A stretch of 64,000 nt of DNA from Escarpia spicata. Lineage: Eukaryota > Annelida > Polychaeta > Sabellida > Siboglinidae. Numbering within the stretch: the first letter of the stretch is position 1; each line of letters starts with the position of its first letter. The stretch lies in the NCBI GenBank assembly GCA_963995525.1, contig OZ023206.1, forward strand, positions 4,166,295-4,230,294. The letters are read 5' to 3'. Made by a program: the position numbers and the translations under genes. The notes under the pieces are model-generated. The model made no database searches, was not told the DNA's origin, and saw only the letters and a program-made list of their open reading frames with translations. Positions 24,014-57,283 of this stretch are shown piece after piece.

Positions 24014-24429
24014 TCCTAATGACCCTAAGTGCTTCAACCAAGGGGAGTACCTATGCAGCGTAAAGTAAAAGATTGCCAAACTATGAATCTAATCGAGAAG
24101 AAGGATGTATGTGGATGTATTTATGCTAGGCAACTAAGACGTTGTAAGTTGTATTCAGCACATATTTTCTACAAACTGCCAAAACACATATTTGGTGCTA
24201 AAATAACTGTTGTTTCGGAGGAGAATATTTCCTTACACATGGAACTTTTACTTCCAGACTTGCGCATTAAGGGCCGGAACTGCATTATTTTACAACTGCA
24301 GTATTTGATGTTACAACGTTATTATTATCATATATGTGTCTTACTGGGGTTGACCAATCGTCGGTATTTGCCTCTTTCTGTAGCATACACTATTGCAACT
24401 GCACGTGTTATTAGTAAACTTGAATATTG

Positions 24430-24561
24430 GTGTGTGTGTGTGTGTGTGTGTGTGTGTGTGTGTGTGTGTGTGTGTGCGTGCGCGTGTGCGCGTGTGCCTG
24501 TGTGCGTGTGGGTATATATATATATATATATATATATATATACGCGCGCGCACACACACAA
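24430..24561. repeat. Compound TG-CG-TA-CG-CA tract, unit 1
   Basis: TG repeats, GCGTGCGCGTGTGCGCG, TA repeats, CGCGCGCG and CA repeats in a row. The tract is almost wholly alternating purine/pyrimidine, and its TG and CA ends are complementary around the TA core. It has strong Z-DNA and cruciform potential. Shadow frames across it are not genes. Confidence 0.95.
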
Positions 24562-24690
24562 CCGCCAAAATACACCGACGTAGATAGACTGATATTTTGT
24601 TTATATTATATTATTGATATCATCATATCTGTGTTTACAAATTTTCTTCTGAGGAGAGGTGGGGGCTGAGACCAGAGGAAAGTACCAGTA

Positions 24691-53084: not shown

Positions 53085-53850
53085 TCTTGTGTGTTCTCTC
53101 GATAGCGAACGACGTGTCGTCAGCCACGAAGCGACGGGCACCTGGTCTTCAGCTCGATGTGCTGAAACGAAGATGATGTAATCCCGTTTAATAAAGTACG
53201 GAATCCAACGAAACCAAACGCAGGAAGTAAGATTATTACGCAAAATCTGGAAAAGACAAGGAAACTGTATTGGCTATGTGAAGAGACAGAGAGAGACAGA
53301 GCATCTTGTGAAACGAAGCAGAGGTCGCACCACCAGTGTAGGGCCTGGTGTATTTGTGCCCAGAGTCATACAAACTCATTGGCCCCATCCATTAACTTTA
53401 ACTGGTCGCTCTTATATTTATGTTTATAAAACATCGTCAAACTAATAAACCCGTTCTATGTTGTTGTCGGTTTCGGTAAGAAACTGTGGGAACACCAGTT
53501 TGCCTTGGCGTTGTTCCCATAGATAAATGTACTTTTTTTCTCAACCTTCGGGGTTTGCTGACGAGGAGAACAACCACCTAAGACTGCTGTCGTTCGTCAT
53601 TATGTACTCAGGAAACACCAGCAGAACGTTTGAAACAGTTTAGTGTTGATATCGTTCCCATAAATAACTGTACTGTTTGCCCACTTCAAAAGGTTGTTTA
53701 CGGGATAATGCACCACCCCAGACGAAGCAGCAACAGCCGTTTGTGATGTCGGGGGTGGTACCTTCAATCCATGGAATCAAACATTTTACCGTTGTTTACA
53801 TAAATAAAAGCTCTCGCCTCCCGCTCTATTATAGCAATGGTCACAATGTG

Positions 53851-55558
53851 TTGTTTTCGTTAGTGCTGTTGAATTTGGTGTACAGGTGCGTGTCGACTGC
53901 TTAAAGCCCATAGCTGAGATCGGGAGCGCCGCCTGGTATCTTCACCGATTGTGTTTGATCAGATAAATAGAGCTACGCCGAACCAGTCACCCCGATGTGT
54001 CCCTCTAGACCGGTGAAAAGGTTGTTATGCATGGCCGACTGTGTTGAATACGGGCGTTATTTCGAGCAGCGGGTTTGCGTGCGCTGACACGGTCTTCATT
54101 GCTACACTGTATACGTGGTATTTGGTATGACATCGTTCCATCGTTGTATTGATCGAACAATGTGTTATTGTAAGCTAGCACTTGCGCAATTTCTGTTGAT
54201 CTATACGAGCTTTGATCAACTTATAATACCAAAGTGCTACCTATTCGCCACAAGTTTAAATGCAAATCATTTATCAACAATTACTGTTTTAAAATGTCTA
54301 GACATTATAGAAATGAAAACGTTATTATTGATGTAGAAAGCTTACTACTGCTGTTTACCATCAAACGTTCAACGTCTATTTGTTAGGCGGGAAACGGCGC
54401 ACTCGTTGAGAGCTAATCATGATTTAGAACGGCTCAGCGTTCATTCCACAATGAGATCGATGCATCTCTGTGTCTACGGAATGCGGTTGTGGAATTCTCT
54501 GAGTAAAGACATACAACCATTAATTATATATCTACATTTAAATATAAATATTAAAACGTCTATTTCACAAACATGTTACTGTGGAAATGTAATTGTTAAA
54601 CGTATTGAATCATGCTAACTAATATATTATAACCTGTCTATTGTGCAACACAATAAATCCATTGAGAGGGTACACATTATGTGTTGATTATTATGTGTGA
54701 AAAAGGAAAACGTACACACTCTTACCTTAATATGATTGTTAGGGGTAATCTGACAGAAAAGTAACTGACTTCGTGTTTACCCCCTTCAAACATCGTATAC
54801 ACAGGTGTGTGTATATGGTATTTTGTAGATTACGTATAATTATATCGCATCAAATAGATAGACCGCTTCTACTATAATCAGAGTCATGTGTGGTGAGAGT
54901 GGATAGTTCGTCCATTTTATATGGAGCGCACTTTTGAAAATGTAATAGCGGCAATGGGTGGTCTAAAAGCAACTAGAAATTAGAAGCACATCTCTTAAGT
55001 CTATTCCGAACTCCCCATCTCGAACCACGTTCTTCTTACTGTTCGTAGTACCGGGGGAATCACAGTCAATGTTTGGAGGTGATATGTCCGTGCGGTTCAC
55101 CCGTGGCCCGCTTAGCGAAACATGTTTTGCTGCTGTCGATTCCAGTAGCAGACACACACAGCCAAAAGAGTCACAACGCGCCAGCCCGGCCGCCTTTCCA
55201 CGCGTGTGACGCCCCACTGCGTGTTCACGCCAGCGGCGTTTACTCCAGCGCAGCCCGGGCAGCTGTGCATTAAAACAATATTACCAAATAGTACACCGAA
55301 ATTATACACATACATAACGCTGCGTATCTCCAACCCCATGTGATATAATGTTCACTCGACAACGATTCACAATAACTCTTTGCAATCAATAAATGTATTC
55401 CGGCAACAACGCGTAATAGTCATTATTCGTATTAATACGTCTGCATATTGACAACATTATTATCATGATTAGTCTACTCACGGGTTAAATACCCCAACTC
55501 ATGTCCCCTGGCATCGACCGGCAAGCTTCTGTTCCTGTCACTTGCCCAGCGTCGAGTG
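53851..55558. repeat. B-module 1.7-kb sub-repeat, first copy, unit 4
   Basis: 1708 bp, same length as the first copy of unit 2. It contains LINE RT fragments (54115-54618) and a candidate exon copy with a 2-bp CA insertion that breaks its frame (minus strand, about 55265-55030). Confidence 0.88.
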
Positions 55559-57283
55559 TTGTTTTCGTTAGTGCTGTTGAATTTGGTGTACAGGTGCGTG
55601 TCGACTGCTTAAAGCCCATAGCTGAGATCGGGAGCGCCGCCTGGTATCTTCACCGATTGTGTTTGATCAGATAAATAGAGCTACGCCCAACCAGTCACCC
55701 CGGTGTGTCTCTCTAGACCGGTGAAAAGGTTGTTATGCATGGCCGACTGTGTTGAATACGGGCGTTATTTCGAGCAGCGGGTTTGCGTGCGCTGACACGG
55801 TCTTCATTGCTACACTGTATACGTGGTATTTGGTATGACATCGTTCCATCGTTGTATTGATCGAACAATGTGTTATTGTAAGCTAGCACTTACGCAATTT
55901 ATGTTGATCTATACGAGCTTTGATCAACTTATAATACCAAAGTGCTACCTATTCGCCACAAGTTTAAATGCAAATCATTTATCAACAATTACTGTTTTAA
56001 AATGTATAGACATTATAGAAATGAAAACGTTATTATTGATGTAGAAAGCTTACTACTGCTGTTTACCATTAAACGTTCAACGTCTATTTGTTAGGCGGGA
56101 AACGGCGCACTCGTTGAGAGCTAATCATGATTTAGAACGGCTCCGCGTTCATTCCACAATGAGATCGATGCATCTCTGTGTCTACGGAATGCGGTTGTGG
56201 AATTCTCTGAGTAAAGACATACAACCACTAATTATATATTTACATTTAAATATAAATATTAAAACGTCTATTTCACAAACATGTTACTGTGGAAATGTAA
56301 TTGTTAAACGTATTGAATCATGCTAACTAATATATTATAACCTGTCTATTGTGCAACACAATAAATCCATTGAGAGGGTACACATTATGTGTTGATTATT
56401 GTGTGTGAAAAAGGAAAACGTACACGTGTCGGAAACCTCACACTCTTACCTTAATATGATTGTCAGGGGTAATCTTACAGAAAAGTAACTGACTTCGTGT
56501 TTACCCCCTTCAAACATCGTATACACAGGTGTGTGTGTATATGGTATTTTGTAGATTACGTATAATTATATCGCATCAAATAGATAGACCGCTTCTACTA
56601 TAATCAGAGTCATGTGTGGTGAGAGTGGATAGTTCGTCCATTTTACATGGAGCGCACTTTTGAAAATGTAATAGCGGCAATGGGTGGTCTAAAAGCAACT
56701 AGAAATTAGAAGCACATCTCTTAAGTCTATTCCGAACTCCCCATCTCGAACCACGTTCTTCTTACTGTTCGTAGTACCGGGGGAATCACAGTCAATGTTT
56801 GGAGGTGATATGTCCGTGCGGTTCACCCGTGGCCCGCTTAGCGAAACATGTTTTGCTGCTGTCGATTCCAGTAGCAGACACACAGCCAATAGAGTCACAA
56901 CGCGCCAGCCCGGCCGCCTTTCCACGCGTGTGACGCTCCACTGCGTGTTCACGCCAGCGGCGTTTACTCCAGCGCAACCCGGGCAGCTGTGCATTAAAAA
57001 CAATATTACCAAATAGTACACCGAAATTATACACATACATAACGCTGCGTATCTCCAACCCCATGTGATATAATGTTCACTCGACAACGATTCACAATAA
57101 CTCTTTGCAATCAATAAATGTATTCCGGCAACAACGCGTAATAGTCATTATTCGTATTAATACGTCTGCATATTGACAACATTATTATCATTATTAGTCT
57201 ACTCACGGGTTAAATACCCCAACTCATGTCCCCTGGCATCGACCGGCAAGCTTCTGTTCCTGTCACTTGCCCAGCGTCGAGTG
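55559..57283. repeat. B-module 1.7-kb sub-repeat, second copy, unit 4
   Basis: 1725 bp. It contains a LINE RT fragment (55823-56326), the intact empty site for the unit 2 insertion (about 56163-56180), and the only open copy of the candidate signal-anchor exon. Confidence 0.88.
56766..56994 (-). CDS. Candidate first exon encoding a signal anchor, unknown gene
   Basis: From the ATG at 56994 the minus strand is open for 76 codons to a good donor (ACA|GTAAGA at 56766/56765). The peptide has a 26-residue head (MHSCPGCAGVNAAG...), a basic stretch VERRPGWR, a hydrophobic segment VVTLLAVCLLL at about 34-44, then STAAKHVSLSGP and a polar region with NRT. This looks like a type II anchor or signal peptide, as in Golgi enzymes. 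The copies at about 55.2 kb and 37.7 kb have a 2-bp insertion in a CA run that breaks the frame after LLAVC, and the copy at 40.8 kb has lost its start. I see no second exon nearby. It might be chance. Confidence 0.3.

Follow-up and report, generated by a model that had tools for sequence, protein, structure and literature searches.

A probable young tandem array of four LicD-family genes, with a recombinant module, in the tubeworm Escarpia spicata

The LicD family (PF04991) unites LicD, FKTN and FKRP proteins of nucleotidyltransferase-like fold. In human FKRP the residues D360, D362, D364 and D416 are reported as essential and a C4 zinc finger is described as a feature of that protein (PMC6965139), and a bacterial LicD-family phosphorylcholine transferase characterised in vitro is said to be structurally closest to FKRP (PMC11982090). 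Among invertebrates, the rumen fluke Calicophoron daubneyi is reported to hold 19 LicD genes, where 17 platyhelminth species average 2.3 (PMC11727788), MolluscDB has a cluster of 94 LicD proteins that is depleted in bivalves (PMC8059625), and annelid glycolipids are stated to carry phosphorylcholine, the enzymatic basis of which a 2019 review calls 'far from resolved' (PMC6994554). A search of the open-access literature found no paper joining LicD with a tubeworm, and MolluscDB alone joined the LicD family with an annelid. Here we describe a 64,000-nucleotide stretch of the siboglinid annelid Escarpia spicata (GCA_963995525.1, contig OZ023206.1, positions 4,166,295 to 4,230,294 of the forward strand; hereafter the window) that contains four closely similar LicD-family genes. 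We consider it likely that they form a young tandem array of a single gene, built by tandem duplication and unequal crossing-over and subject to a birth-and-death fate.

Comparison of the window with itself places repeat starts at 24011, 32032, 41170 and 49406, with the final copy ending at 57283, and yields unit lengths of 8.02, 9.14, 8.24 and 7.88 kb. Matches among the copies run over several kilobases at ~94-99% identity, which excludes chance. A first-pass annotation of this DNA had proposed a four-unit array; four units of 7.88-9.14 kb, each with a LicD frame, are indeed present, but they are not copies of one equivalent unit. Alignment of all four reveals a module (L, ~5 to 5.5 kb) common to every unit, followed on its right by spacer A in units 1 and 3 and by spacer B in units 2 and 4, both spacers being located 5' of the LicD genes. 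The resulting order, L1-A-L2-B-L3-A-L4-B, rules out a simple four-fold repeat. Module L1 (24011..28967), left-truncated relative to L2-L4, is followed by the first copy of spacer A (RA1, 28967..31717), module L2 (31718..37145), the first copy of spacer B (RB2, 37145..40852, with a unit-specific insertion), module L3 (40853..46253), the second copy of spacer A (RA3, 46253..49091), module L4 (49092..54582) and the second copy of spacer B (RB4, 54582..57283), after which unique right flank begins. Spacers are 99.4-99.7% identical within a class; outside shared repeats A and B are only ~38-46% identical and hence unrelated DNA. Head-to-tail arrangement, high identity and duplication junctions are thus all found here, and the proposal that a LicD/fukutin-like gene was recently amplified as part of a segment is supported by module identity, by the junctions and by PF04991.

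The modules and their spacers do not share one level of divergence. With microsatellites masked, L2, L3 and L4 differ from each other by 0.34-0.42%, and L1 differs from these three by 1.79-1.84% over the module; microsatellite lengths are different in each L copy. Spacer copies RA1 and RA3 differ at 14 of 2743 positions (0.51%), and RB2 and RB4 at 9 of 1596 (0.56%) and 2 of 718 (0.28%) in the two segments compared. A single 17-kb duplication is insufficient to produce this pattern, as L1 and L3 are 1.8% apart and their spacers 0.5%. The discrepancy is localised by 100 diagnostic positions at which L1 differs from an identical L2 and L4. At or left of 45768, L3 carries the L2-type base at 71 of 74 such sites; from 45872 on it carries the L1-type base at 25 of 26. 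The switch falls between these two positions; an L1-type site also occurs earlier, at 45593. In the right-hand end of the module (36765-37145 and its equivalents) L1 and L3 differ by 0.26% and both are ~7% from L2 and L4, while in the left part L1 and L3 diverge by 1.84%. L3 is therefore a hybrid, L2-type on its left and L1-type on its right.

This mosaic bears directly on whether the array is an artefact of assembly, in which two L-A-L-B haplotypes, with about two copies each, were stacked head to tail. The spacer order A, B, A, B is what stacking would give, the 0.3-0.6% between the A copies and between the B copies would be a plausible level for alleles, and of the two B copies only RB2 carries the insertion, the pattern expected if it were heterozygous. 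Alleles should, however, match the closeness of their spacers across the whole module, whereas L1 and L3 are 1.84% apart on the left and 0.26% at the right end, the change coming abruptly at about 45.8 kb. Moreover, L3 opens with ~300 bp missing from L1 and is joined to truncated spacer B rather than to the left flank, and the window contains no N. On balance we regard stacking as quite unlikely.

The junctions point to how the units arose. On the left of L2 and of L4 the module is entered identically from the end of spacer A. On the left of L3 spacer B is truncated, and its counterpart in unit 4 runs on differently at 56892, which identifies the left junction of L3 as a new breakpoint; at this junction (40853) only 2 bp (GA) are common to both sides. 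A locally repeated segment of ~450 bp (36341..36785) is found upstream of the gene, close to where module L ends on the right, with further copies at 28162-28606, 28953-29383, 45448-45892, 46239-46669 and 53778-54222. These segments are of two kinds, 88% identical to each other, and the L3 switch falls within the copy at 45448-45892. An exchange inside the retroelement-like tail at the right end of the module was also considered and dropped, as the stretch with database relatives begins at 45941, to the right of the switch.

These features can be ordered as follows. The ancestral arrangement would have been L1-A-L2-B; an end-joining tandem duplication of L2 and most of B would have followed; and the new L copy would then have exchanged sequence with an L1-A chromatid within the ~450-bp segment, through unequal crossing-over or through conversion, to give four genes. 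We infer this order as the most economical history. The duplication and crossing-over involved are most likely ordinary events in a gene family that already had several members.

The same boundaries could be read as those of a transposing unit with the LicD gene as its cargo, since the left and right limits of L are the same in different surroundings. The right limit coincides, though, with the end of homology between two diverged repeat copies, spacer A enters L2 and L4 in identical fashion, the L3/spacer B junction has its 2 shared bp and no target-site duplication was seen there, and the 63 frames of the units that were scanned against Pfam yielded neither a transposase nor an integrase domain. 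A mobile-element origin is accordingly very improbable, and duplication followed by unequal crossing-over remains our preferred account.

That scan took its 63 frames from the 91 stop-to-stop frames of at least 60 aa in 24011-41200, the range of units 1 and 2, including the LicD frame of copy 1; low-complexity frames and 28 L2 frames that repeat those of L1 were dropped. The LicD frame was the sole convincing match, and one other family, PF10233, was reached by two frames at an E-value of 0.0046 at best. No second gene to which the word broken could apply was recognised in this range, and the first-pass description of almost all other coding sequence as broken is poorly chosen. Neither did tblastn of 26 related proteins against the window (E 1e-3) find any further LicD pieces outside the four frames.

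Each unit does contain, as had been claimed, one uninterrupted LicD-like frame, in all cases on the minus strand. From the first ATG that matches relatives, the coding sequences occupy 26421..27485 (copy 1, 354 aa), 34499..35647 (copy 2, 382 aa), 43606..44754 (copy 3, 382 aa) and 51942..53084 (copy 4, 380 aa). The listed open frames (26421-27644, 34499-35806, 43606-44913 and 51942-53243, respectively) open at TTG, 53 codons before this ATG. In each of the four copies the ATG is preceded by a word that resembles a 3' splice site by motif only (pyrimidine tract and CAG), and a 5' non-coding exon is possible. Two AATAAA words resembling polyadenylation signals, again by motif only, were noted for copy 2, the one copy inspected, at 33846..33938 on the minus strand, ~560-650 bp 3' of its stop codon. 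The proteins of copies 2 and 3 are identical, copy 4 differs from copy 2 by a 6-bp in-frame deletion and one amino-acid change, and copy 1 lacks 84 bp, equal to two periods of a 42-bp repeat in the stem.

All four copies match PF04991, at 44.4-46.3 bits against a curated gathering cut-off of 22.6, over profile positions 2-53 of 227 only. In a sequence search of the PDB, FKRP was the sole match at E<=1 (3e-4). An AlphaFold2 model has a mean pLDDT of 61.8, lowered by a long stem and an N-terminal tail; in the 435-aa frame modelled it predicts a helix at 57-88, a low-confidence stretch at 89-198 and a confident domain from about residue 200, where most ten-residue blocks score 70-95 and three score 60-68. 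Foldseek places FKRP chains at ranks 1-13 with E-values from 1.4e-7 to 2.5e-6. The stem is Ser/Thr-rich, of low complexity and predicted to be disordered. The 26 homologues, which include Lamellibrachia satsuma LSAT2_012175 and Ridgeia piscesae NP493_473g00021, were aligned with the 4 copies, and in these 30 sequences the positions of FKRP D360, D364 and D416 hold Asp in 30, 30 and 29 cases (with 1 gap), while the position of D362 is divided equally between Glu (15/30) and Asp (15/30). Copy 2 reads D, E, D and D, an acid at each of the four metal-binding positions. Across the alignment, both the acidic motif and the Asp downstream of it are conserved, and a W-G-T motif stands in place of hG[GS].

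Each gene would most likely encode a Golgi type II membrane transferase with an anchor, a stem and a luminal catalytic domain, and the layout predicted by the model fits this. Such an enzyme would use the two-metal mechanism of FKRP to move a phosphate-linked group from a CDP-activated donor to a glycan, and its likeliest cargo would be phosphorylcholine, because annelid glycolipids carry this group. The anchor, the fold and the active-site residues are predicted from the sequence; donor, acceptor, cell location and expression we infer.

Four intact frames had been taken as a sign of retained function, and substitution patterns were compared among the copies, counting from the ATG on and estimating dN/dS by the NG86 method. 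Coding substitutions that separate copy 1 from copies 2, 3 and 4 number 19, 20 and 18, respectively (1.70-1.88%), a level similar to the 1.73-2.33% by which the flanks of module L, microsatellites included, separate copy 1 from the rest. The corresponding dN/dS ratios are 1.00, 0.82 and 0.93, or 1.29, 1.05 and 1.22 when the 53 upstream codons are added. Of the 18 codons that changed between copies 1 and 2, 14 did so non-synonymously; a count at least this high agrees with neutrality (P=0.56 under omega 1) and is improbable under strong constraint (P=0.0009 at omega 0.2, P=0.012 at omega 0.3). Copies 2-4 are only 1-2 coding substitutions apart, so their intactness carries no information. In neutral simulations (4000 for each condition, substitutions only, with frameshifts not simulated) the frame remained free of stops in 50% of runs at 20 substitutions and in 47% at 22; intact frames therefore tell of youth and not of function, and as proof of selection they are rejected. 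In-frame indels were likewise rejected as a sign of selection: the 84-bp difference is set in length by the 42-bp stem repeat, and the 6-bp indel is all that remains. The copies are young enough for their frames to be intact without selection. Retained function is consequently not sustained by these data, and the accompanying caveat, that recent duplication alone could explain the intact frames, proves the better reading.

A selected amplification, in which copies are kept for the dose or the diversification of a glycan-modifying enzyme, would be compatible with the same duplication history. Its four intact frames come with unchanged catalytic acids, dN/dS falls to 0.36-0.47 when the catalytic part of copy 1 is compared with the others, and LicD families are expanded in a fluke. 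Set against this, dN/dS over the whole coding sequence is not clearly below 1 (0.82-1.00), the coding sequence has diverged roughly as much as its flanks, about one in two neutral simulations leaves the frame free of stops, the 5 non-synonymous and 3 synonymous changed codons in the catalytic part fit any omega from 0.2 to 1, and copies 2-4 are too alike for testing. Two of the five catalytic-part differences, I190V and I318R, carry in copies 2-4 a residue that occurs in 2 of 26 and 0 of 26 relatives, a pattern that fits mild decay as well as a change of function. We consider selected amplification unlikely, and return to a young array whose members need no selection to be intact.

Several observations weigh against this account and temper it. 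Four of the 100 diagnostic sites in L3 misfit a single switch, a conversion event in L1 or L3 would leave a similar picture, and the 0.3-0.6% between recent copies could be heterozygosity between falsely stacked haplotypes. The intact catalytic acids together with the catalytic-part dN/dS of 0.36-0.47, which is based on 8-9 changed codons and does not differ from 1, would also fit mild constraint. In the anchor and stem, 9 changed codons against 1 give a dN/dS of about 3 that is not different from neutral (P=0.23), nor is the stem (9 vs 1) different from the catalytic part (5 vs 3; Fisher P=0.27). Finally, TM-scores of the FKRP fold matches reach only ~0.3 for the full-length model, and with Glu at the position of FKRP D362 an equal mechanism is not assured.

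A more adventurous scenario would see in this locus a fast-turnover system of surface diversification in a symbiotic worm, where recombination in a shared repeat repeatedly makes new LicD genes, places them beside the alternative upstream contexts A and B and varies the length and sequence of the stem through 42-bp losses while the catalytic core stays nearly fixed. We hold this to be very doubtful.

Other elements inside the array include the insertion in RB2 (38737..40123, 1387 bp), whose empty site lies at 56163-56173 in RB4. It consists of two direct repeats of ~465 bp (98%) around ~415 bp, with a C-rich tract near the start of each repeat and an 11-bp target-site duplication, and is possibly a small non-autonomous retroelement. 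RB4 itself holds most of a 1.7-kb tandem duplicate (53848-55556 and 55557-57283, 1.06% apart). At the right end of module L an open-frame part on the plus strand (36834..37091, equivalent to 28655-28912) reaches no Pfam domain and resembles the final part of a reverse transcriptase from non-LTR retroelements; seven of eight database candidates, on contigs of up to 942 kb, proved to be related, each of them aligning from residue 62 of the query onward. In spacer A a 16-bp tandem array counts 8.8 copies in unit 1 (30465-30605) and 14.8 copies in unit 3 (47743-47979), a length difference that can serve as a marker separating the two A spacers in reads. Searches against Rfam gave 0 matches at gathering score, and a DNA search of a phage collection gave no match; a scan of IMG/VR viral contigs returned 25 distant LicD loci, which were set aside.

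Outside the array, two pieces of a short-chain dehydrogenase (PF00106) at 6993-7975 lie in adjacent plus-strand frames and cover successive parts of the profile, as expected of exons in an intron-containing animal gene; three PF00106 frames were counted in the flanks, the third without a position. A dispersed repeat family (13751-14333, 15380-15732 and 23503-23908; 85-88% identity) and a nearby reverse-transcriptase fragment (PF00078, 14581-15048, below the curated cut-off; three flank frames) are probably retroelement debris. A 45-bp minisatellite with ~86 copies at 94% matches fills 60010-63900 and is open in several frames on both strands; its long open reading frames are artefacts of the repeat because 45 is divisible by three. 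Further minisatellites at 11315-11685, 12376-12756, 7295-7436 and 21912-22085, with periods of 12, 29, 36 and 42 bp and 93-99% matches, make the window rich in young tandem repeats.

What this locus offers is a real-looking, young array of a known kind in which recombination is unusually legible. It also illustrates how little an intact frame says about function when the duplicate is young. If expressed, the copies would be candidate enzymes for adding phosphorylcholine or similar groups to invertebrate glycans.

Compared with described proteins, the four copies score above the LicD family cut-off and share with half of the aligned sequences the Glu at the second acidic position. Human FKRP (PDB 6kaj and others) is the best match in both sequence and fold and has metal-binding acids at the same four positions, yet its chains are only 19-22% identical to the copies in the fold matches. 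The loop that forms its C4 zinc finger (C289, C296, C317 and C318) has no counterpart, and the translated copies contain no cysteine between membrane anchor and catalytic domain. Orthology to FKRP is ruled out by these missing cysteines, which identify a LicD/FKRP-like enzyme and not FKRP. The L. satsuma and R. piscesae proteins (57% and 41% BLASTP identity, respectively) share the layout of an N-terminal hydrophobic stretch, a catalytic domain and a similar C-terminus, with stems that differ widely in length and sequence. The expansion in C. daubneyi, likewise a lineage-specific increase of LicD genes in a spiralian, is known from its source as an orthogroup count, and the E. spicata locus provides a clean case of the onset of such gene-family expansion, in which the junction can be read, one module is recombinant and the site of exchange is a shared repeat.

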